Shown in pieces: positions 19,334 to 36,510 of a stretch of DNA of 64,000 nucleotides. Numbering within the stretch: the first letter of the stretch is position 1; every line of letters starts with the position of its first letter. This DNA comes from Tolumonas osonensis. GTDB taxonomy: Bacteria > Pseudomonadota > Gammaproteobacteria > Enterobacterales > Aeromonadaceae. A program made the translations under genes and the position numbers. Below the pieces are notes generated by a model. It ran no database searches. It was not told where the DNA came from and worked only from the letters and a program-made list of their open reading frames with translations. The DNA is taken from assembly GCF_014202415.1 (NCBI RefSeq), contig NZ_JACHGR010000002.1, positions 248,001 to 312,000 of the forward strand. The letters are read 5' to 3'.

Positions 19334-20311
19334 TCAGCCCCCGATTGATGCCAGATGTGGTGTCACACCACTGTTTCCTTCATGCAGGAAGTGGGTTTCA
19401 CGTTTATGGGTTAAGCCCTGCAAAATGCGGCTTTGTAATTCACTATTCTGTTCATCGACTTGCAGCAAATCGCGCAGTGGCACACCTTCTTCGCCGAACA
19501 GACAAAGGTGCAATTTGCCGACTGACGAAACCCGCAGCCGATTGCAGTTAGCACAGAAATCCTTGCTGTACGGCATGATGAGACCGATCTGCCCCTGATA
19601 ATCTGGATGAGAAAACACTTCAGCTGGGCCATCAGTCAGATCACGGCTTTGCTGAATCCAGCCTTCGCGTAACAGACGCGCTTTTACCGGCAGGCCGCTC
19701 TGATGGTGTTTCTGAAAACGGGCATCCATTTCGCCGGTTTGCATCAGTTCGATTAAACGCAGTTGGATCGGCTGATTTTTCAGCCAGAACAGGAATTGCG
19801 ACAGCTCATGATCATTGAGGTTTTTCAGCAATACGGTGTTCACTTTGATTTTGCGAACCCCAGCCTGCTGTGCGGCATCCAGCCCGGCTAAGATCTCAGC
19901 CAGTTTGTTTTCACCAGTAATGAGCTGGAACTGGCGTGGGTCGAGGCTGTCAATGCTGACATTGAGGGAACGTAACCCGGCATCAAACCACTGCTGCGCT
20001 CGATCTTTCAGACGATAGCCGTTGGTGGTCATCGCCACGTTATCAATGCCGCTGATATTGGCGACCGTCTCAATAATCGCCGGCAGATCACGGCGCATCG
20101 ACGGCTCACCGCCGGTCAGGCGGATCTTCTTTACGCCCAATTCGGCAAAGGTAGTCGCCACCCGTCGAATTTCGTCGACAGTGAGGAAGGATTTGCGTCC
20201 GTCGGGGCGATAGCCGTCCGGCAGACAATAGGTGCAGCGAAAATTACAGGCTTCTGTTACTGACAGACGCAGGTAATGAAAGCGGCGGGAAAAACCGTCT
20301 TGTAACATCAT
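19334..20311 (-). CDS. moaA: GTP 3',8-cyclase (radical SAM)
   Basis: The 325-residue enzyme starts molybdenum cofactor synthesis. The N-terminal radical-SAM cluster is CNFRCTYC, followed by [12 protein letters not shown]. The C-terminal 4Fe-4S cluster is [11 protein letters not shown] with a later Cys in LHLCLFG, and the last residues are HLASIGG, the C-terminal double glycine MoaA needs. Two adjacent ATGs (20311 and 20308) follow AAAGG. Starts further upstream (20383) would extend into a structured leader and are rejected. Confidence 0.95.
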
Positions 20312-20425
20312 ATACACCTTTCCAAATTCGGGAGGCCAGTGCATTTCTTTACTGACCCTCGCAGGGCAACTGCTCGGCTGCATGGCCTTATCAGAGACTT
20401 AGGCGATGCAGCTCGGTGTGTTGTT
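20312..20425 (-). ncRNA. Structured moaA leader, candidate molybdenum-cofactor riboswitch
   Basis: The transcript between moeB and moaA folds strongly. GCTGCAT and ATGCAGC (plus-strand 20377-20412) form a 7-bp stem capped by GCCT/AGGC, and CCCTGCGAGGG makes a second hairpin. A final GGCCTCCCG segment lies just before the AAAGG ribosome site. Moco-sensing RNAs are known upstream of moaA in gammaproteobacteria, so position and complexity fit. I could not match the full consensus by eye. Confidence 0.5.
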
Positions 20426-20466
20426 TGTGTTTTGAATCCGTTGTCTCATTTGTAAAGACAACAGAT

Positions 20467-22494: not shown

Positions 22495-22824
22495 TTATTC
22501 CGCTTTTAACCAGACTTCGTCACCGCGAACATCTACCGGCCAGCTTTTTACGGCGATCCCCGGTGCATCTAGGCAACGCCCGTCGGCCAGTGCGAAATGC
22601 TGCTTATACAGCGGTGATGCCACACAGAGTTCATCCTGAATATCGCCGATGATGCCGCGGGAAAGCACGAAGGCTTCACCCAGCGGATCCCAGTTATCCA
22701 GTGCATACACCGATGGAATTTCATTCGGAATATAAAACACTGCCACCTGCTTGCCATTGACCAGGGCTGTCCGGCCGGAATGCTCAACCAGGTCGTTCAA
22801 TTCACAAATTTTCTGCCAGCTCAT
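22495..22824 (-). CDS. nirD: Nitrite reductase (NADH) small subunit
   Basis: The 109-residue Rieske-like protein lacks the Rieske Cys/His ligands, as is normal for NirD. WQKICELNDL, DNWDPLGEAFVLSRGIIGD and VASPLYKQHFALADGRCL match the family. It overlaps the end of nirB by 4 bp (ATGA). Confidence 0.95.
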   Translation of the reverse strand: MSWQKICELNDLVEHSGRTALVNGKQVAVFYIPNEIPSVYALDNWDPLGEAFVLSRGIIGDIQDELCVASPLYKQHFALADGRCLDAPGIAVKSWPVDVRGDEVWLKAE

Positions 22825-25340
22825 ACCAACTCCTTGATCAGAATTAACTCTTCGTCAGCTTTAGGGATCGCCTGCTCACGCACGATCTGACGCGGTGGCA
22901 TATACGCCTCGTCACTGTTGAGGAACGGCGCAAAACGTTTCAATTTTTCGGGATCTTCAATGGTGGTTTTCCATTCGCATTGATAGGTGTCAATCAGGTG
23001 CAGCATCTGGTCTTCCAGTTCCGCCGCAATGCCGAGTTTGTCGTCGATGATGACCGATTTCAGGTAATCCAGACCGCCTTCCATGTTTTCCATCCATACG
23101 GAAGTACGTTGCAGACGGTCGCCGGTACGGATGTAGAACACCATCAGGCGATCGATGTATTTGATCAGATCTTCATCGCTGAGATCGGTGGCGAACAGGT
23201 CGGCATGGCGTGGGCGCATCCCGCCGTTACCACAGACATACAGGTTCCAGCCTTTTTCGGTGGCAATCACGCCAAAATCTTTGCTTTGCGCTTCGGCACA
23301 TTCACGGGTGCAACCGGAAACGGCAAATTTGATTTTGTGCGGCGCACGGATGCCCTTGTAGCGGTTCTCTAGTGTGACTGCCATGCCGGCAGAATCTTTG
23401 ACGCCGTAACGGCACCAGGTTGAACCAACACACGATTTCACAGTACGCAGTGATTTGCCGTAGGCATGACCGGTTTCAAAACCGGCATCAACCAGTTCCT
23501 TCCAGATCACAGGCAGTTGATCGACACGGGCACCAAACAAGTCAACACGCTGACCACCAGTGATTTTGGTGTAGAGGTTGTATTTCTTCGCCACCTGCCC
23601 CAGCACGATCAGCTTGTCGGGGGTGATTTCACCACCGGCGATACGTGGCACGATGGAATAGGTGCCATCTTTTTGCAGGTTACCGAGGAAAGCATCGTTA
23701 GTGTCCTGCAGTGGCTGATGAGGCTTTTCCAGAATATGGTCGTTCCACAATGACGCCATGATGGAACCAATCATTGGTTTGCAGATATCGCAGCCACGAC
23801 CTTTGCCATGCTTGCTCAATACCTGTTCAAACGTTTTCAGCTCACCAACACGGATCTGATGAAACAACTCCTGACGGGTAAAAGCAAAGTGTTCACAGAC
23901 ATGGTTGTTGGCTTCCATACCCATTTCGGTCAACGTCTGATCAACCACCTGTTTCAGCAGGTTTGAACAACCACCACAACCGGTACCGGCCTTGGTGCAA
24001 GCTTTGATATCCGCCACGGTGTGATTGCCGGCTTTAACGGCCGCCACTACATCGCCTTTGGTGACGTTATGGCAGGAACAGATGGTCGCGGTATCGGGCA
24101 GCGCCAGAGAAGTCGGTTTCGCGCTACCGCCTTCCGGCAGCAGCAATGACAGTGTAGGATCAGGCAGTTCCATCTTGTTCAGATAGAATTGCAGCAGTTG
24201 ATCGTAATCGCTGTTATCACCAATCAGGATCGCACCGAGCAGAATTTTGCCGGTTTCATCGGTGACCAGTTTTTTGTAGATGCCGGATGGACGATCCAGC
24301 AGCAGTAACTCTTGTGAGCCCGCAGTGGCGGCATGGCTGTCACCGATGGCGCCCACATCAACGCCCATCAGTTTCAGCTTGGTGCTCATGTCGGCACCTT
24401 TAAAGCGGGTTTCACCACCCAGAAGGGTACTGACCGCAGAGCGTGCCATCTGGTAGCCCGGCGCGACCAGACCAAAAATTTTACCTGACCACAGCGCACA
24501 TTCACCGATAGCCAGTACATCAGGATGCGAGGTCACACACTGTTCATCAATGGTGATACCACCGCGTTCGCCCACGGTCAGACCGGCTTGGCGTGCCAGA
24601 CGATCTTCCGGGCGGATACCGGCAGAGAACAGAATGACATCGGTTTCGAGATGAGTGCCGTCTTTAAACATCATGCGATGCAGCGCGCCTTCGCCATCGA
24701 CGATTTTGTCGGTCGCGGTATCAACATGCACTTTTACACCCAGGCTTTCGATTTTGTTTTTCAGCATGTCCCCGGCGACTGGATCCAGCTGCACCGGCAT
24801 CAGACGCGGGGCGAATTCGATGACATGCGTTTCCAGCCCGAGCAGACGCAACGCATTAGCCGCTTCCAGACCCAGCAGACCGCCACCAACAACCACACCG
24901 GTGCGGCCACCAGCACAGGCATCACGGATTTCATCCAGATCAGCCAGTGTGCGATAGACATAGCAGCCCTTACGCTCGTGACCAGGAATAGGTGGAACGA
25001 ACGGATAAGAACCGGTTGCCAGTACCATTTTGTCAAAAACATAAGATTCGCCCTGTTCGGAAATAATTGTCTTGTTTGCCAGATCCAGCGATTCCGCTTT
25101 GCAGCTCAGGATCAGCGACACACCTTTTTCGGCATACCATTCCGGATCGGCCATCTGCAGTTCTTTCGGTGCGCGACCGCCGAAAACTTCGGACAGATGT
25201 ACCCGGTCATACGCACTGTCTGGCTCTGCGCCTAATACGGTGACTTCGAATTGTTCCAGACCACCGGCGTTGACCAGCTGTTCCACAAAATGGTGACCAA
25301 CCATGCCGTTCCCGACGACTAACAGACGTTGCTTGCTCAT
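22821..25340 (-). CDS. nirB: Nitrite reductase (NADH) large subunit
   Basis: The 839-residue cytosolic siroheme enzyme reduces nitrite to ammonium. In order it has an FAD/NAD(H) half (VVGNGMVGHHFVEQL, then GVVVGGGLLGLEAANAL), a BFD-type [2Fe-2S] site (CSCHNVTKGD and CGGC), and the siroheme/4Fe-4S ligands SCVGSTWCRYG and SGCTRECAEA. The start has AAGGAA upstream. It follows a terminator-containing leader (25431-25657) that resembles the nrtA leader, so transcription into nirBD-moeAB is probably controlled by NasT antitermination. Confidence 0.97.
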   Translation of the reverse strand: MSKQRLLVVGNGMVGHHFVEQLVNAGGLEQFEVTVLGAEPDSAYDRVHLSEVFGGRAPKELQMADPEWYAEKGVSLILSCKAESLDLANKTIISEQGESYVFDKMVLATGSYPFVPPIPGHERKGCYVYRTLADLDEIRDACAGGRTGVVVGGGLLGLEAANALRLLGLETHVIEFAPRLMPVQLDPVAGDMLKNKIESLGVKVHVDTATDKIVDGEGALHRMMFKDGTHLETDVILFSAGIRPEDRLARQAGLTVGERGGITIDEQCVTSHPDVLAIGECALWSGKIFGLVAPGYQMARSAVSTLLGGETRFKGADMSTKLKLMGVDVGAIGDSHAATAGSQELLLLDRPSGIYKKLVTDETGKILLGAILIGDNSDYDQLLQFYLNKMELPDPTLSLLLPEGGSAKPTSLALPDTATICSCHNVTKGDVVAAVKAGNHTVADIKACTKAGTGCGGCSNLLKQVVDQTLTEMGMEANNHVCEHFAFTRQELFHQIRVGELKTFEQVLSKHGKGRGCDICKPMIGSIMASLWNDHILEKPHQPLQDTNDAFLGNLQKDGTYSIVPRIAGGEITPDKLIVLGQVAKKYNLYTKITGGQRVDLFGARVDQLPVIWKELVDAGFETGHAYGKSLRTVKSCVGSTWCRYGVKDSAGMAVTLENRYKGIRAPHKIKFAVSGCTRECAEAQSKDFGVIATEKGWNLYVCGNGGMRPRHADLFATDLSDEDLIKYIDRLMVFYIRTGDRLQRTSVWMENMEGGLDYLKSVIIDDKLGIAAELEDQMLHLIDTYQCEWKTTIEDPEKLKRFAPFLNSDEAYMPPRQIVREQAIPKADEELILIKELV

Positions 25341-25430
25341 GTTTATGTTCCTTAAACTACGGCACTATTTTCAGTGGATCCGTTTCAGGGGGTCCGTTTC
25401 AGTGGTGTTCCCCCTGTTGGTGTAATACTC

Positions 25431-25468
25431 AAAAAAAAACGCCCCACTGGTAAATTCCAGTGAGGCGT
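25431..25468 (-). terminator. Leader terminator upstream of nirB
   Basis: Read on the minus strand, ACGCCTCACTGG, loop AATTTA, CCAGTGGGGCGT forms a 12-bp stem with one G-U pair, followed by nine T. The stem is the same as in the nrtA leader. It lies 91 bp upstream of the nirB start with no gene between, so it acts as an attenuator rather than a gene-end terminator. Confidence 0.88.
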
Positions 25469-25657
25469 CATTGCCTGAGTGACCAAATTGTTGGGTAGCC
25501 CGTTTGACTAATCCGTTAACAATTTAGATACATTCAGCTTTCATGCCAGTTTTTAAAGTCTCTTAAAACATGGCATTTAGATGTATTTTTAACGATTTTA
25601 CGGAGTTTTCGTGACTCACGACGGTGCAACTGCACCAGATCAGTCAACCAGCATGGC
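25469..25657 (-). promoter_or_regulatory. nirB leader, diverged copy of the nasT-nrtA intergenic region
   Basis: In transcript sense the leader has an upper hairpin (ATGCCA...TGGCAT with an inner GTTTTAA/TTAAAAAC stem), the conserved GGCATGAA...TGTATC stretch, and a lower hairpin (AATTGTT...AACAATT enclosing TAGTC-AAACG-GGCTA), then the terminator. The whole segment aligns with 32229-32415. Its upstream end (25640-25657) matches the last codons and stop of nasT, and the following GGTGC...GCACC hairpin is also kept. The spacing to the kinase gene stop (25695) is about 40 bp. Confidence 0.75.
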
Positions 25658-25694
25658 GAAGTTTTTGTGAGTCAGATCGCACGAAAAGTGTATT

Positions 25695-27422
25695 TTAGCC
25701 AGCATGGAAAATCCGGTAAAACAGCTGAATCAAGTTTCCCAGCAGCAAAATCAGCGCAGTTAGCTTCCAGAATAAAACCGGATTCTGTTCCAGGATCGGC
25801 CGATGCTGTAAATCGGCTTCCAGCTCCCGGTTGGGTGCCGATATATCAGTAAAAAACTCGGAAAATGCCTCATAGCGGTTTTCCGGATCAGGCTGTAGCG
25901 CTTTTTGAAGCGCAGCATCGACCCAGACCGGCAGATCTTGGCGAAAATACTTTGCGGGGGTGTAAGTCAGTTCAGCATAACTTTTAAGCTTTCCGGCACG
26001 TGGTGAGCGTTCTTTATACGGCAGTTTGCCCGTTAGCATTTCATAGACAATGACGGCCAGCGAGAACAGATCTGAACGCATACTGCCAGTGAACCCCATC
26101 AGGTATTCCGGCGCGATGTAATTCACACTGCCCTGCGGGATCGATTTATCCAATGGCGAATTCTTCTCTTGGCTGCCCGCGATCAGCACAGTGCCAAAAT
26201 CGAGAATTTTGACCTTGCCCTCGGTGGTAAGCATGATGTTTTCCGGTTTCAGATCCTGATGCACCATGTCGTTGCGCTGAAAAGCGCGTAATCCGGCAAT
26301 GACTTGTTTGGTGATGTCTCTAACATCGGCCAATGCCGGTTCCGGGTGTTCGTTGATCCAGGTTCTGAGATCACAACCCACGATGTATTCACCCAGATAA
26401 TACATAAACTGTTTCGGTCGCAGCGGCTTATAGGTCTTCATCACATTGGGATGATCGATGGTGAGCCCAACCCACTCTTCGCGGATAAAACCATCCAGAT
26501 ACAGCAGATCTTCGGTGAAATATTCTGACGGCGCTTTCAGCACAAACAGCGCACCGGTTTCCATGTCTCTGACTTTGTACATATGACTGCGGGTGCCGCT
26601 GAAGATAATATCCAGCACCTCATAACCGTCGATTTTATTGCCCACTTGCAGTACAGGCGGAATGGGCAATTGCGTCAGCCGCTGCTGCGTTTCATCCAGT
26701 GTTTCATTAGGCAGCGAATCCACCGCGAGAATCAGTGCCGTGAGATTATCGTCACTGGCTTTATACAACGCCAGATTGACCAACGCCTTGGCTTGTGCCT
26801 CCGGGTCATGTTCACGGTCAAGTACATCCCGCATCATTTCCGGTGTCAGCACACTATGCACACCATCGGAGGTGAGAATGATGCGATCACCTTCACTGAG
26901 CAGACGTTTTAAATAATCAACTTCAAGGTGAGAATCAGCCCCTAGTGCGCGGGTCAGATGCGTGCGTTTGCCGCTGGTTGCAACATGATCAGTGGTTAGT
27001 TTTTCGAGTTGTTGATTGCTATAAAGATAGATGCGGGTGTCGCCGACATGAAACGCATGCAGCGTGGACGATTTAATCACAGCAGCGGTGAAGGTGGTCA
27101 GCATGCTGTCTTTGATGCCGTGGTTTTGCTGATTTTTTTGATATAACCAGCGATTCAGGCTGGTGATCACTTTGGAAGCGCTGGTGCTGACACTCCAGTT
27201 TGGTGAGGTGCTCAGATAATCATTGATGAAGCTGGTGACGGCAGTCTGGCTGGCAATATGCGAGTCTTCACAGCTGCTGACGCCATCAGCAATAACTGCG
27301 ACTATCCCCTTATAATCTAATTCATGACTGTCGGGGATCTTGACGGCAAACGCATCCTGATTGCTGGCTTTTTGTCCGGCGATTGAATACCCGCCAACCC
27401 GGATCTGAAGGGATTTTGCCAT
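25695..27422 (-). CDS. PP2C phosphatase / Ser-Thr protein kinase fusion, membrane anchored
   Basis: The 575-residue protein joins two opposing activities. The PP2C domain (about 1-235) keeps metal ligands in SNQDAF (Asp23), IADGVSS (Asp46), LTSDGVHS (Asp186) and SDDNLTAL (Asp224/225). The kinase domain (about 265-525) keeps the ATP lysine (Lys296), DFG (408-410) and APE (437-439). Its catalytic loop reads HQDLKPEN instead of HRD, and the glycine loop is degenerate. One C-terminal helix (about 548-570) should anchor it in the inner membrane. It lies between the NarK-type transporter and nirB, so control of nitrate assimilation is plausible. The substrate is unknown. Confidence 0.9.
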   Translation of the reverse strand: MAKSLQIRVGGYSIAGQKASNQDAFAVKIPDSHELDYKGIVAVIADGVSSCEDSHIASQTAVTSFINDYLSTSPNWSVSTSASKVITSLNRWLYQKNQQNHGIKDSMLTTFTAAVIKSSTLHAFHVGDTRIYLYSNQQLEKLTTDHVATSGKRTHLTRALGADSHLEVDYLKRLLSEGDRIILTSDGVHSVLTPEMMRDVLDREHDPEAQAKALVNLALYKASDDNLTALILAVDSLPNETLDETQQRLTQLPIPPVLQVGNKIDGYEVLDIIFSGTRSHMYKVRDMETGALFVLKAPSEYFTEDLLYLDGFIREEWVGLTIDHPNVMKTYKPLRPKQFMYYLGEYIVGCDLRTWINEHPEPALADVRDITKQVIAGLRAFQRNDMVHQDLKPENIMLTTEGKVKILDFGTVLIAGSQEKNSPLDKSIPQGSVNYIAPEYLMGFTGSMRSDLFSLAVIVYEMLTGKLPYKERSPRAGKLKSYAELTYTPAKYFRQDLPVWVDAALQKALQPDPENRYEAFSEFFTDISAPNRELEADLQHRPILEQNPVLFWKLTALILLLGNLIQLFYRIFHAG

Positions 27423-30814: not shown

Positions 30815-32179
30815 TTAAAGTTTCTGATCGCCTTTCAAACCAATCGGGAATTGCTTCAGATAGTCGTTCGGTTTGTGACCATCGTAGGTAATGCCATCAA
30901 TGAACTTGTTGTCTGGCGCTTTGTAGCCGGTCTCTTTGGCAAAATCAGGGAAGTCGCTCGCCTTCATCTTGCCTTCGGCAATCAGCTCTTCTGCGGCCTG
31001 ACGGTACACTTCCGGTTTGTAAACCTGCTTCGCCAGATCGGCATACCAGCTGTCTGGTTTCGCTTCCGGGATTTGTCCCCAGCGACGCATTTGGGTCAGA
31101 TACCAGATCGCATCGGAGTAATACGGGTAGGTCGCGTTATGACGGAAGAAGATGTTGAAGTCGGCAGCCGGACGTTTGTCGCCTTTCTCAAACTCAAAGG
31201 TGCCGGTCATGGAGTTCGCAATCACTTTGGCATCGGCGCCGACATATTCCGGTTTTGCCAGCAGATTGACGGCTTCCTGACGGTTAGCGTTGTTGTTTTC
31301 ATCCAGCCAGTAAGCGGCACGGATCAGTGCTTTCACCAGATGAATGTGCGTATTCGGGTATTTTTCTGCCCATGATTTGGAAACCCCGAATACTTTCTCT
31401 GGGTTGTTATGCCAGATTTCATCGTCAGTCACGACCGGCACGCCAATTCCCTTAAAGACCGCAGCCTGGTTCCACGGCTCACCAACGCTGTAACCGAGGA
31501 TAGTGCCTGCTTCCAAGGTAGCCGGCATTTGTGGTGGTGGCGTTACCGACAGCAGCACATCGGCCTGTTGCTGGCCGGTGTTATCACCTTTCAGTGGCGC
31601 ATAAAAGCCAGGGTTCAAACCACCCGCCGCCAGCCAGTAACGCAGCTCGTAGTTGTGAGTAGAGACCGGGAACACCATACCCATGTTGAACGGCTTACCC
31701 TGATCTTTGTAAGACTTAACGACCGGTTTCAGCGCATCCGCCTTGATTGGATGCACTGGTTTACCATCAGCACCCACTGGTACGTTGGCTTTCATCGCCT
31801 CCCACACCTTGTTGGAAACGGTGGTGGCATTACCGTTCAGATCCATGCTGAAGGCAGTCACTACATCGGCTTTTGTTCCTACGCCTGCAGTAGCACCCAG
31901 CGGCTGACCAGCCAGCATATGCGCACCATCCAGTTCACCGGTGATCACGCGATCGAGCAGCACCTTCCAGTTGGCCTGCGCTTCCAGCGTGACATACAGC
32001 CCTTCATCTTCGAAATAGCCCTTCTCATAAGCGACGGCCAGTGGCGCCATGTCGGTTAACTTGATAAAGCCTAATTTCAGCTCTTCTTTCTCAGGGGCAC
32101 CTGTCTGTGCCTGCACCGCCGTTGAAGCCAGCACCGCACTTACCATCCAAGCTACTGCATTGCGTTTTAATGTGATCAT
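30815..32179 (-). CDS. nrtA: Nitrate ABC transporter periplasmic binding protein
   Basis: The 454-residue NrtA/NasF-type binding protein has a Sec signal (about residues 5-26, ending ASTAVQA). The mature start [28 protein letters not shown] and the [11 protein letters not shown] loop are typical of nitrate-binding proteins. ATG 32179 is chosen, with GGAG just after the leader terminator. Starting at 32206 would place the coding start inside the terminator's T run. It is first in the transporter operon, downstream of nasT and the attenuating leader. Confidence 0.93.
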
Positions 32180-32190
32180 TCCATTGCTCC

Positions 32191-32228
32191 AAAAAAAACG
32201 CCTCACTGGTTAATTCCAGTGAGGCGTC
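32191..32228 (-). terminator. Leader terminator upstream of nrtA
   Basis: In transcript sense GACGCCTCACTGG, loop AATTAA, CCAGTGAGGCGT and eight T. The 11- to 12-bp stem is perfect and sits 12 bp before the nrtA start codon, so it must be read through for nrtA-nrtB-nrtD to be expressed. Confidence 0.9.
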
Positions 32229-32397
32229 ATTGCCTGAGTACCAAATTGTTGGGCAGCCGCCGTTGGCTAATCCGTTAACATATTTGATACATTCAGCATT
32301 CGTGCCAGTTTTGAAAGTTGTCAAAACATGGCTTTTTTATGCATTTTTAGTGGATTTAATGGATTCCCATGATTCAGAACGGTGCAGCCGCACCGGA
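32229..32397 (-). promoter_or_regulatory. nrtA leader with two hairpins, probable NasT target
   Basis: After the nasT stop the transcript contains a CGGTGC-GGCT-GCACCG hairpin, then an upper hairpin GCCA..GTTTTGA-CAACTT-TCAAAAC..TGGC, the stretch GGCACGAATGCTGAATGTATC, and a lower hairpin TAGCC-AACGGC-GGCTG. The last loop has A at position 1 and G at position 4 of six, the signature of ANTAR-bound RNA hairpins. The terminator follows. The arrangement matches known NasR/NasT-controlled leaders. Confidence 0.75.
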
Positions 32398-32958
32398 TCA
32401 GTCAGCCAGTGTGGCGAGAATTCGGCGCGCCAGATCAGCCATCGACTGGCTGTTTTTCATCGCGGTAGAACGCATCACTTTATAGGCAGTTTCTTCATCC
32501 AGCCCCTGCACTTTCATCAGGCGCGCTTTGGCCTGCTGGATGAGTTTGTTTTCTTCCAGACGCTGCGTCAGATCATCGACCGCCAGTTGCTGTTTACGCA
32601 TCACCTCTTGCTGCAGACGCGCCTGTTTCAGCCAACCTTCTACCGGCTCTTTTTCTTCGACCCGGTGCGGCACCAGCGTCACGCCCGCTTCCAATAAGAG
32701 TTGCTGCTGATTTTCCGGCAGGTTTTCCATAAACAACACCACCGGCAAGCCCTGACTGGCCAGTGTCGTCGCAATTAATCGCCATTCCGCCGTTAACCGC
32801 CGGCAATCGAGCATCACCCCATGGATATCACCCGGCGGGTGCATAGGATCGATCTGTTTGACCAAATAAGGCTCATGACCATAGCGGCTCAATAGCAAAC
32901 CCAGGCGGTTGGCCTGGGCTATATCGTCGCTATAAATCAGGATCTTCGAATAACTCAT
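32398..32958 (-). CDS. nasT: ANTAR-domain transcription antiterminator (NasT type)
   Basis: The 186-residue RNA-binding regulator has an N-terminal receiver-like fold (about 1-115). It keeps Asp11/Asp12 and Asp51 (VMLDCRRL), but the conserved lysine after strand 5 is missing (VTLVPHRVEE). A coiled-coil linker leads to a C-terminal ANTAR domain (about 125-182), AVDDLTQRLEENKLIQQAKARLM...AYKVMRSTAMKNSQSMADLARRIL. ANTAR proteins bind paired hairpins in leaders and prevent termination. It lies upstream of nrtA, whose leader carries such hairpins. No nasS-like sensor gene is visible in this window. Confidence 0.92.
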   Translation of the reverse strand: MSYSKILIYSDDIAQANRLGLLLSRYGHEPYLVKQIDPMHPPGDIHGVMLDCRRLTAEWRLIATTLASQGLPVVLFMENLPENQQQLLLEAGVTLVPHRVEEKEPVEGWLKQARLQQEVMRKQQLAVDDLTQRLEENKLIQQAKARLMKVQGLDEETAYKVMRSTAMKNSQSMADLARRILATLAD

Positions 32959-36402: not shown

Positions 36403-36438
36403 AAAAAAACGCCCGGCCCTTCAAGAGAGCGCGGACGT
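36403..36438 (-). terminator. Leader terminator upstream of nasA
   Basis: On the minus strand ACGTCCG-C-GCTCT, loop CTTGA, AGGGC-CGGGCGT makes a 12-bp stem with one bulge and G-U pairs, followed by seven T. It lies 16 bp before the nasA start with no gene between. Its sequence differs from the nrtA and nirB leader terminators but its position is the same. Confidence 0.82.
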
Positions 36439-36510
36439 CGGTGTCCCAAATCTAATTTAATATTTTAGATACAAGTTTCATGCCTGATTTAAACAAGCTG
36501 ATAACACAGG
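36439..36510 (-). promoter_or_regulatory. nasA leader, third putative antitermination leader
   Basis: Transcript sense: CCTG...CAGG hairpin, then GGCATGAAACTTGTATCTAA, a stretch shared with the other two leaders (GGCAYGAA...TGTATC), then ATCTAA...TTAGAT, then the terminator. The spacing is shorter than in the other leaders and the hairpin loops do not show the canonical ANTAR sequence. Confidence 0.5.

Follow-up and report, generated by a model that had tools for sequence, protein, structure and literature searches.

Control cassettes beside nrtA and nirB

The window, i.e. the whole stretch of 64,000 nucleotides from Tolumonas osonensis that was analysed, carries on its minus strand, in this order, a nasA-like nitrate reductase gene, cobA, nasT, a control cassette (copy A), nrtA, nrtB, nrtC, narK, a gene for a PP2C-phosphatase/protein-kinase fusion, a second control cassette (copy B), nirB, nirD, moeA and moeB. 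The eight proteins from nasA to nirB (cobA excepted) were checked against Pfam and NCBIfam; cobA, nirD, moeA and moeB are tentatively named from their translations, the last three also by their position. The cassettes and the genes that adjoin them are:

22821-25340, minus strand: nirB, the first gene 3' of copy B, with nirD, moeA and moeB next (NCBIfam TIGR02374, 1061 bits)
25428-25659, minus strand: copy B, the control cassette before nirB (83% identity to 32187-32417)
25640-25659, minus strand: nasT-derived end piece TCGCCATGCTGGTTGACTGA, non-coding here (alignment with the nasT end)
30815-32206, minus strand: nrtA, the first gene 3' of copy A (Pfam NMT1_2, 331 bits)
32187-32417, minus strand: copy A, the control cassette from the nasT end to the nrtA start (local alignment with copy B)
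32398-32958, minus strand: nasT, encoding an ANTAR RNA-binding regulator (Pfam PF03861, 60.6 bits, cut-off 27.3)

The nrtA coordinates are those of the longest open frame, and the true start is probably located downstream, beyond the terminator.

NasT is the sole ANTAR match in the genome (E <= 0.001), and the search gave no match in any of 14 control genomes. The protein has 186 residues and a C-terminal ANTAR domain to which its Pfam matches are confined; a NIT domain match was not found in Pfam. Its best match among solved structures is 4akk, a 'nitrate regulatory protein' (residues 117-183, E 2e-7). A NasS-like partner was not found in the genome, where NrtA (332.8 bits) is the sole strong NMT1_2 protein and just one other protein matches, weakly (35.9 bits). 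NtrC (768.8 bits, above cut-off) and RpoN are both encoded. The PP2C/kinase fusion (25695-27422) may be a conceivable candidate for a nitrate sensor.

In the family, which we take to be Aeromonadaceae, nasT was matched in 31 of 75 genomes, three of these being weak matches in genus g2. At the level of the order the same NasT was found in 15 of 394 genomes (E <= 1e-20), of which 14 belong to the family, including the window's own, and G288 is the sole relative outside it; among 369 genomes of the class only the window's own matched (E <= 1e-12). From two other genera, g4 (presumably Aeromonas) and g5, 15 and 2 loci were fetched out of 17 and 2 genomes with a match, g4 genomes G057 and G067 being left out. 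The motif AY..(M/L)R..AM is present in all 27 NasT sequences, the window's included, which were picked by a script using a similar motif that missed one of 28 loci (L037). By eye, it was paired with Tyr164 and Met172 of EutV, which contact the hexaloop according to excerpts of PMC8934654.

An earlier note on this DNA had claimed that the nirB leader is a diverged duplicate of the nasT-nrtA junction. Indeed, local alignment of copy B (25659-25428, minus strand) with copy A (32417-32187, minus strand) gave identity in 197 of 236 columns (83%) with a score of 262, and blastn an E-value of 5e-61. Chance resemblance was ruled out, the best of 300 shuffles reaching 27. A whole-genome DNA search with the nirB copy (E <= 0.001) had copies A and B as sole matches. 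The match enters the nasT coding end by ~20 bp, TCGCCATGCTGGTTGACTGA (25659-25640) corresponding to TCGCCACACTGGCTGACTGA (32417-32398, minus strand), the final codons and stop of nasT, just as had been claimed; past this piece, similarity amounts to a weak gapped extension at most. At the other end the match terminates just 3' of the T run of the terminator, ahead of the likely nrtA start. Pairwise alignment thus excluded a similarity limited to the terminator stem, and the coordinates reported before (25431-25657 and 32191-32415) were correct to within a few bases. The duplication of a leader was rightly recognised but its scope was drawn too narrowly, since operator, promoter and terminator are also included, and the features are on the minus strand, not on the plus strand where they had been placed.

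Elements of the cassette

Cassette copies were aligned from 11 Tolumonas genomes including the window; the alignment comprises 21 copies, nine of them A, nine B and three of a further kind, C, which stands before narK. The elements identified in the window are:

25612-25647, minus strand: candidate operator of copy B, two back-to-back NtrC-like sites TTGACT-N5-GGTGCA and TGCACC-N5-GAGTCA (motif scan, conservation)
25533-25549, minus strand: sigma54-like promoter of copy B, CTGGCATG-AAAG-CTGAA, with a good -24 and a variant -12 element (strongly conserved, 21 copies)
25485-25525, minus strand: P1 stem-loop of copy B with a loop of 5 bases and without a strong A1/G4 hexaloop; the outer stem is AAATTGTT:AACAATTT and the inner one TAGTC:GGCTA (fold, pair counts, hexaloop scan)
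25463-25476, minus strand: P2 hexaloop of copy B, AGGC-AATGAC-GCCT, with A1 and G4 (hexaloop scan)
25431-25468, minus strand: intrinsic terminator of copy B, 5' arm shared with P2, then a T run (leader fold z = -5.99)
32370-32405, minus strand: candidate operator of copy A, overlapping the last nasT codons (motif scan)
32292-32308, minus strand: sigma54-like promoter of copy A, CTGGCACG-AATG-CTGAA (alignment of copies)
32254-32269, minus strand: P1 hexaloop of copy A, TAGCC-AACGGC-GGCTG (hexaloop scan)
32222-32235, minus strand: P2 hexaloop of copy A, AGGC-AATGAC-GCCT (hexaloop scan)
32191-32227, minus strand: intrinsic terminator of copy A (fold)
36403-36446, minus strand: third ANTAR-type leader, before nasA, P2 GGAC-ACCGAC-GTCC at 36433-36446 and terminator at 36403-36437 (hexaloop scan)

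Across the copies, the -24 element is preceded at ~60-100 bases by a back-to-back pair of sites, TTGACT-N5-GGTGCA and TGCACC-N5-GAATCA (or similar). The GGTGC..GCACC element had been read as a leader hairpin, but since it is located ~60-100 bp upstream of the sigma54-like promoter it is better read as a DNA operator than as leader RNA. In eight B copies (without G008) the operator segment is invariant in 37 of 41 columns, versus 40 of 72 in the spacer after it. The NtrC consensus is an inverted TGCACY-N5-RGTGCA. Excerpts of PMC5424462 quote a related consensus and report NtrC control of nitrate-assimilation genes in Paracoccus. Both candidate sites match mostly 9-10 of 12 consensus positions at a nearly fixed place, scores of at least 9 and at least 10 being reached in 20% and 2.6% of shuffles of one B upstream region, respectively. 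For the 15 g4 loci the mean score was 9.1, versus 8.45 in shuffles.

GGTGCA was found between the nasT stop and the -24 element in all 15 g4 loci, beginning at -88 or -89 relative to the -24 element in ten of them; the remaining ones have it at -78, -101 or -124. It lies 7-56 bases past the nasT stop in 12 loci and 164-179 bases past it in three with an extra segment. This segment of ~140 bp stands between the nasT stop and the operator in L061, L067 and L070; L061 and L067 share 131 of 150 bases of it, L070 only the first part (ACTGCGAGGCCGTGATCAAGGCTCATGTGCTGCTCG). The operator-like element of the g4 loci thus lies 3' of the nasT stop, outside the coding sequence; for most Tolumonas copies the start of this half-site is at about -87, and here the final nasT codons enter the element. 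When nasT was compared between nine species, 32 of 131 degenerate codons with a conserved amino acid were identical, and the last Leu, Asp and stop codons are all identical, a constancy that fits, and on these few codons suggests, a role in the operator. We infer that the copies probably kept the nasT stop because the final nasT codons make up the outer portion of the operator. The stop before nirB, lying within a conserved operator-like element, is then probably more than a mere relic.

The promoter form YTGGCAYGAAAGCTGAAT is common to the copies, apart from deviations in G008 and in copy A of the window. Its -24 element is good and strongly conserved, but the -12 element CTGAA deviates from the TTGC of the consensus, which is given as TGGCAC-N5-7-TTGCT in excerpts of PMC12316311. 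Upstream of nasA in several g4 loci, TTGGCGCAGGCTTTGCAG or a near form fits the sigma54 standard.

The leader is arranged as P1, a linker (7-8 bases long in the majority of copies), P2 and a terminator sharing the 3' arm of P2. A P1 hexaloop, defined by a stem of at least three pairs, at least two of them G-C, and a 6-base loop with A1 and G4, was present in 9/9 A copies and in both g5 leaders; a strong P1 hexaloop was not found in any of the nine B copies, the three C copies or the 15 g4 nrtA leaders. Its lack before nirB had gone unnoticed in the earlier note. The P2 hexaloop (A1, G4) overlaps the terminator in 21/21 Tolumonas copies, A and B of the window included, and was also kept in all 15 g4 and both g5 nrtA leaders. 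Locus L084 of G288, the one usable control from outside the family, has both hexaloops; in the g2 loci L055 and L056, which have longer ANTAR-matching frames, the leader scan found none.

Six of the B copies have a P1 loop of ~16 bases; the three others (G000, G002 and G008) and all C copies have one of 4 or 5 bases. Since loop lengths differ, the alignment is uncertain within the P1 loop. For the B copy of G007, the single one folded of these six, the fold adds an inner hairpin within the ~16-base loop. Under relaxed rules, a weak alternative hexaloop of the type GTTA-ACGGAT-TAGC could be drawn in 10 of the 12 B and C copies, and one of the 15 g4 leaders offers a different one. The P1 hexaloop of B and C may therefore have moved instead of being lost, but with an energy of +0.5 kcal/mol, versus -4.4 for the P1 of the A type, and with 4-pair hexaloop matches arising in ~10% of shuffles, little weight is put on the alternative.

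The terminator helix is paired in 99.6% of alignment cells and the outer stem of P1 in 90.7%. Both-side changes were seen at two terminator pairs, in one sequence each, and a structure of P1 plus terminator is modestly above shuffles (covariation score reached in 2 of 500). P1 plus P2 showed no covariation beyond shuffles, because the letters are nearly constant. Linker, P2 and terminator together are invariant in 53 of 65 columns in B and 55 of 65 in A (eight copies each, G008 left out, as in all segment counts).

Spread and origin of the copies

A DNA search of 40 relatives found the cassette in 10/10 genomes of the same genus and in 0/30 others. B copies are present in eight further Tolumonas genomes, and the same pair of A and B was found wherever both sites were recovered; in fragmented genomes B (G001), B and C (G004) or A (G006 and G010) were not recovered. 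C copies occur in G001, G007 and G006, the last one assigned by similarity as its contig stops short of narK. In G008, copy B is located between nrtC and nirB, and narK and the kinase gene are absent there. In G007, nrtC and copy C are separated by three genes, which, judged by their translations, are presumably one for a LysR-type regulator, a small gene and one for an old yellow enzyme. Within L022 (9616-12308) of that genome, copy C begins ~16 bases past the LysR stop.

The loci of the two other genera have nirB behind nrtC throughout (15/15 in g4, 2/2 in g5), and 16 of the 17 have nasT upstream of nrtA with both genes on one strand. In g4 the leader stands between nasT and nrtA in 15/15 loci, and a scan for an ANTAR P2 plus terminator detected it before nrtA in each of them. 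The same scan found nothing between nrtC and nirB in the 15 g4 and two g5 loci; it missed the nrtA leaders of g5, which have 3-pair P2 stems and were found by reading and a looser scan. In g5, ~1.1 kb separates nasT from nrtA in L057, and nasA-cobA-nasT is divergent from nrtABC-nirB in L058. Comparison of the region upstream of nirB revealed no nasT beside it in these 17 loci.

The earlier note had left two histories open, a copied regulatory cassette or a nasT gene that once stood before nirB, and the comparison supports the former: copy B starts inside the nasT coding sequence, stops after the terminator and recurs together with A in Tolumonas. Since B carries the coding end of nasT without nasT and ends before the nrtA start, the direction was from the nasT-nrtA junction to nirB. 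The alignments show the copying, its direction and its spread through the genus.

In a tree of the copies, all A copies fall on one side of a branch with a support of 100/98, opposite B and C. B and C are intermixed and B is not one clade (four changes); G002_B stands beside the A clade and the long-branched G008_B among the C copies. Mean identity was 0.874 among A copies (28 pairs) and 0.924 among B copies (28 pairs), and A-B identity was 0.804 between different genomes (58 pairs) and 0.80 within the same genome (6 pairs); pairs with G008 were kept apart and range from 0.65 to 0.76. As A and B of the same genome are no more alike than those of different genomes, the duplication is old and shows no homogenisation; it would predate the split of most sampled species, the placement of G008 being less sure because of long branches. 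For the same reason, ongoing gene conversion between A and B within a genome was unsupported. G000_B and G002_B have A-like stretches at P1 and terminator, which are only slightly closer to the A copy of the same genome than to those of other genomes. C copies have a mean identity of 0.90 to B (22 pairs) versus 0.787 to A (22 pairs), and are therefore derived from B or from the source of B.

Proposed switch and alternative explanations

Taken as a whole, we consider it likely that the control region of nrtABC was copied before nirB and there gives a switch controlled by NtrC/sigma54 and NasT. In an ancestor of the sampled Tolumonas the region from the 3' end of nasT to past the terminator would have been copied, and nirBD and the genes behind would have acquired a promoter and a NasT-controlled terminator of their own. 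The anatomy and the absence of a strong P1 hexaloop from the copies can be read directly from the DNA; from it we infer the action of NtrC, sigma54 and NasT, and the signals. When nitrogen is short, NtrC at the operator would drive the sigma54 promoter, and transcription would end at the terminator as long as the P2 hexaloop is not bound by NasT. In the presence of nitrate or nitrite, NasT on P2 would block the terminator, since P2 shares an arm with it. The copies would have kept the P1 stem-loop with the hexaloop replaced by a loop of 4, 5 or ~16 bases. Since the P1 hexaloop is absent from the nirB copy, NasT would have to act there through P2 alone, or its control would have been lost.

In the EutV system, mutation of A1 or G4 in either loop lowers induction (excerpts of PMC3369931), and each hexaloop must be contacted to prevent termination (excerpts of PMC8934654, 2022), which speaks against the NasT switch being functional in the B and C copies. 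The cassette could thus have been copied but its B and C leaders be unresponsive to NasT, with a constitutive or partly read-through terminator behind the NtrC/sigma54 promoter, as the lack of the P1 hexaloop from 9/9 B and 3/3 C copies would fit. We regard this as possible but unlikely: an unrelieved terminator should decay, yet P2 and terminator are conserved about as in A, which favours P2 being enough, and in the 15 g4 loci a single-hexaloop leader, presumably workable, is the only one found between nasT and nirBD, which points the same way.

Two further explanations concern how the leader came to stand before nirB. A former nasT gene immediately upstream of nirB, deleted except for its 3' end and leader, would account for the ~20 bp of coding end and stop in the nirB copy, but the position of nirB directly behind nrtC and the lack of nasT beside it in all 17 loci of two genera leave this history unsupported. 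Further, the remnant extends 5' beyond the operator by ~12 bp in B and by less in C, as for a copied unit, and the C copies before narK would demand a second loss of nasT; we hold the deletion to be highly improbable. Alternatively, the second leader could have been placed by recombination at leader repeats, e.g. by a circle carrying narK and the kinase gene that integrated between direct repeats. Copies A and B are indeed direct repeats flanking nrtABC-narK-kinase, and copy C of G007 directly follows the inserted LysR/old-yellow-enzyme segment, but nirB is already behind nrtC in other genera, and G008 has copy B between nrtC and nirB without narK and kinase gene (which could have been lost), making this route quite improbable.

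ANTAR leaders before nitrate and nitrite genes are already known, and nitrite reductase is among the computed ANTAR-leader hits in excerpts of PMC3369931. Like the dual-hexaloop leaders (EutV/eutP, NasR/nasF, AmiR/amiE; excerpts of PMC3369931 and PMC8934654), the cassette has an A1/G4 P2 at the base of the terminator, mutually exclusive with it, and its regulator gene is close by; the P1 hexaloop is present as well in copy A and both g5 leaders, whereas B, C and the 15 g4 nrtA leaders have an upstream stem-loop without a strong hexaloop. An ANTAR protein encoded beside nitrate-assimilation genes and a leader terminator are shared with the NasS-NasT systems of Paracoccus, Pseudomonas and Azotobacter (excerpts of PMC5424462; see also PMC3795266), but the Tolumonas genome has no NasS-like second binding protein of comparable score. 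For NasR of Klebsiella, a NIT-ANTAR fusion, the match to 4akk lets a similar role be expected, but NasT differs in its size of 186 residues and in having no NIT domain match in Pfam.

In the part of the literature searched, we found no report of a copied NasT cassette with a captured nasT piece, nor of natural antitermination leaders without a P1 hexaloop. With a little more doubt than trust, we propose a single-hexaloop class of ANTAR leaders in the presumed Aeromonadaceae, in which the P1 stem would serve as a scaffold, its hexaloop would have been lost separately in the two genera, before nirB and narK in the Tolumonas copies and before nrtA in g4, and one hexaloop would suffice. If true, single-hexaloop antitermination would overturn the rule of two obligatory hexaloops. 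According to excerpts of PMC8934654, P1 or P2 alone binds EutV with an affinity not significantly different from that of the pair, single-hexaloop motifs may exist and need further work, and the question is asked why both hairpins are needed if the dimer binds only one. Copies A (two hexaloops) and B (one) are a pair within one genome facing the same regulator, which makes that question, as posed in these excerpts, directly testable. Further, an apparently complete switch of ~230 bp (operator, promoter, antitermination leader and terminator) has been copied in one piece to genes nearby, on two occasions as it seems, and the captured piece of nasT still reveals where it came from.

The third leader, before nasA, showed neither a P1 hexaloop 5' of its P2 nor any resemblance to the cassette in BLAST; its region (36403-36485, minus strand) has a sigma54-like AGGCATGAAACTTGTA. 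Rfam at gathering score returned for the window only a Moco (molybdenum cofactor) riboswitch (20299-20430, minus strand, 88.5 bits), which stands where a moaA-like gene of this cluster begins. In L077, a perfect NtrC-type site, TGCACC-TTATT-GGTGCA (1501-1517), stands before the gene of a likely amino-acid transporter binding protein, and 3' of it, near 1603, is a promoter, TGGCACTTTTATTGAT, whose -12 element again is TTGA and not TTGC.
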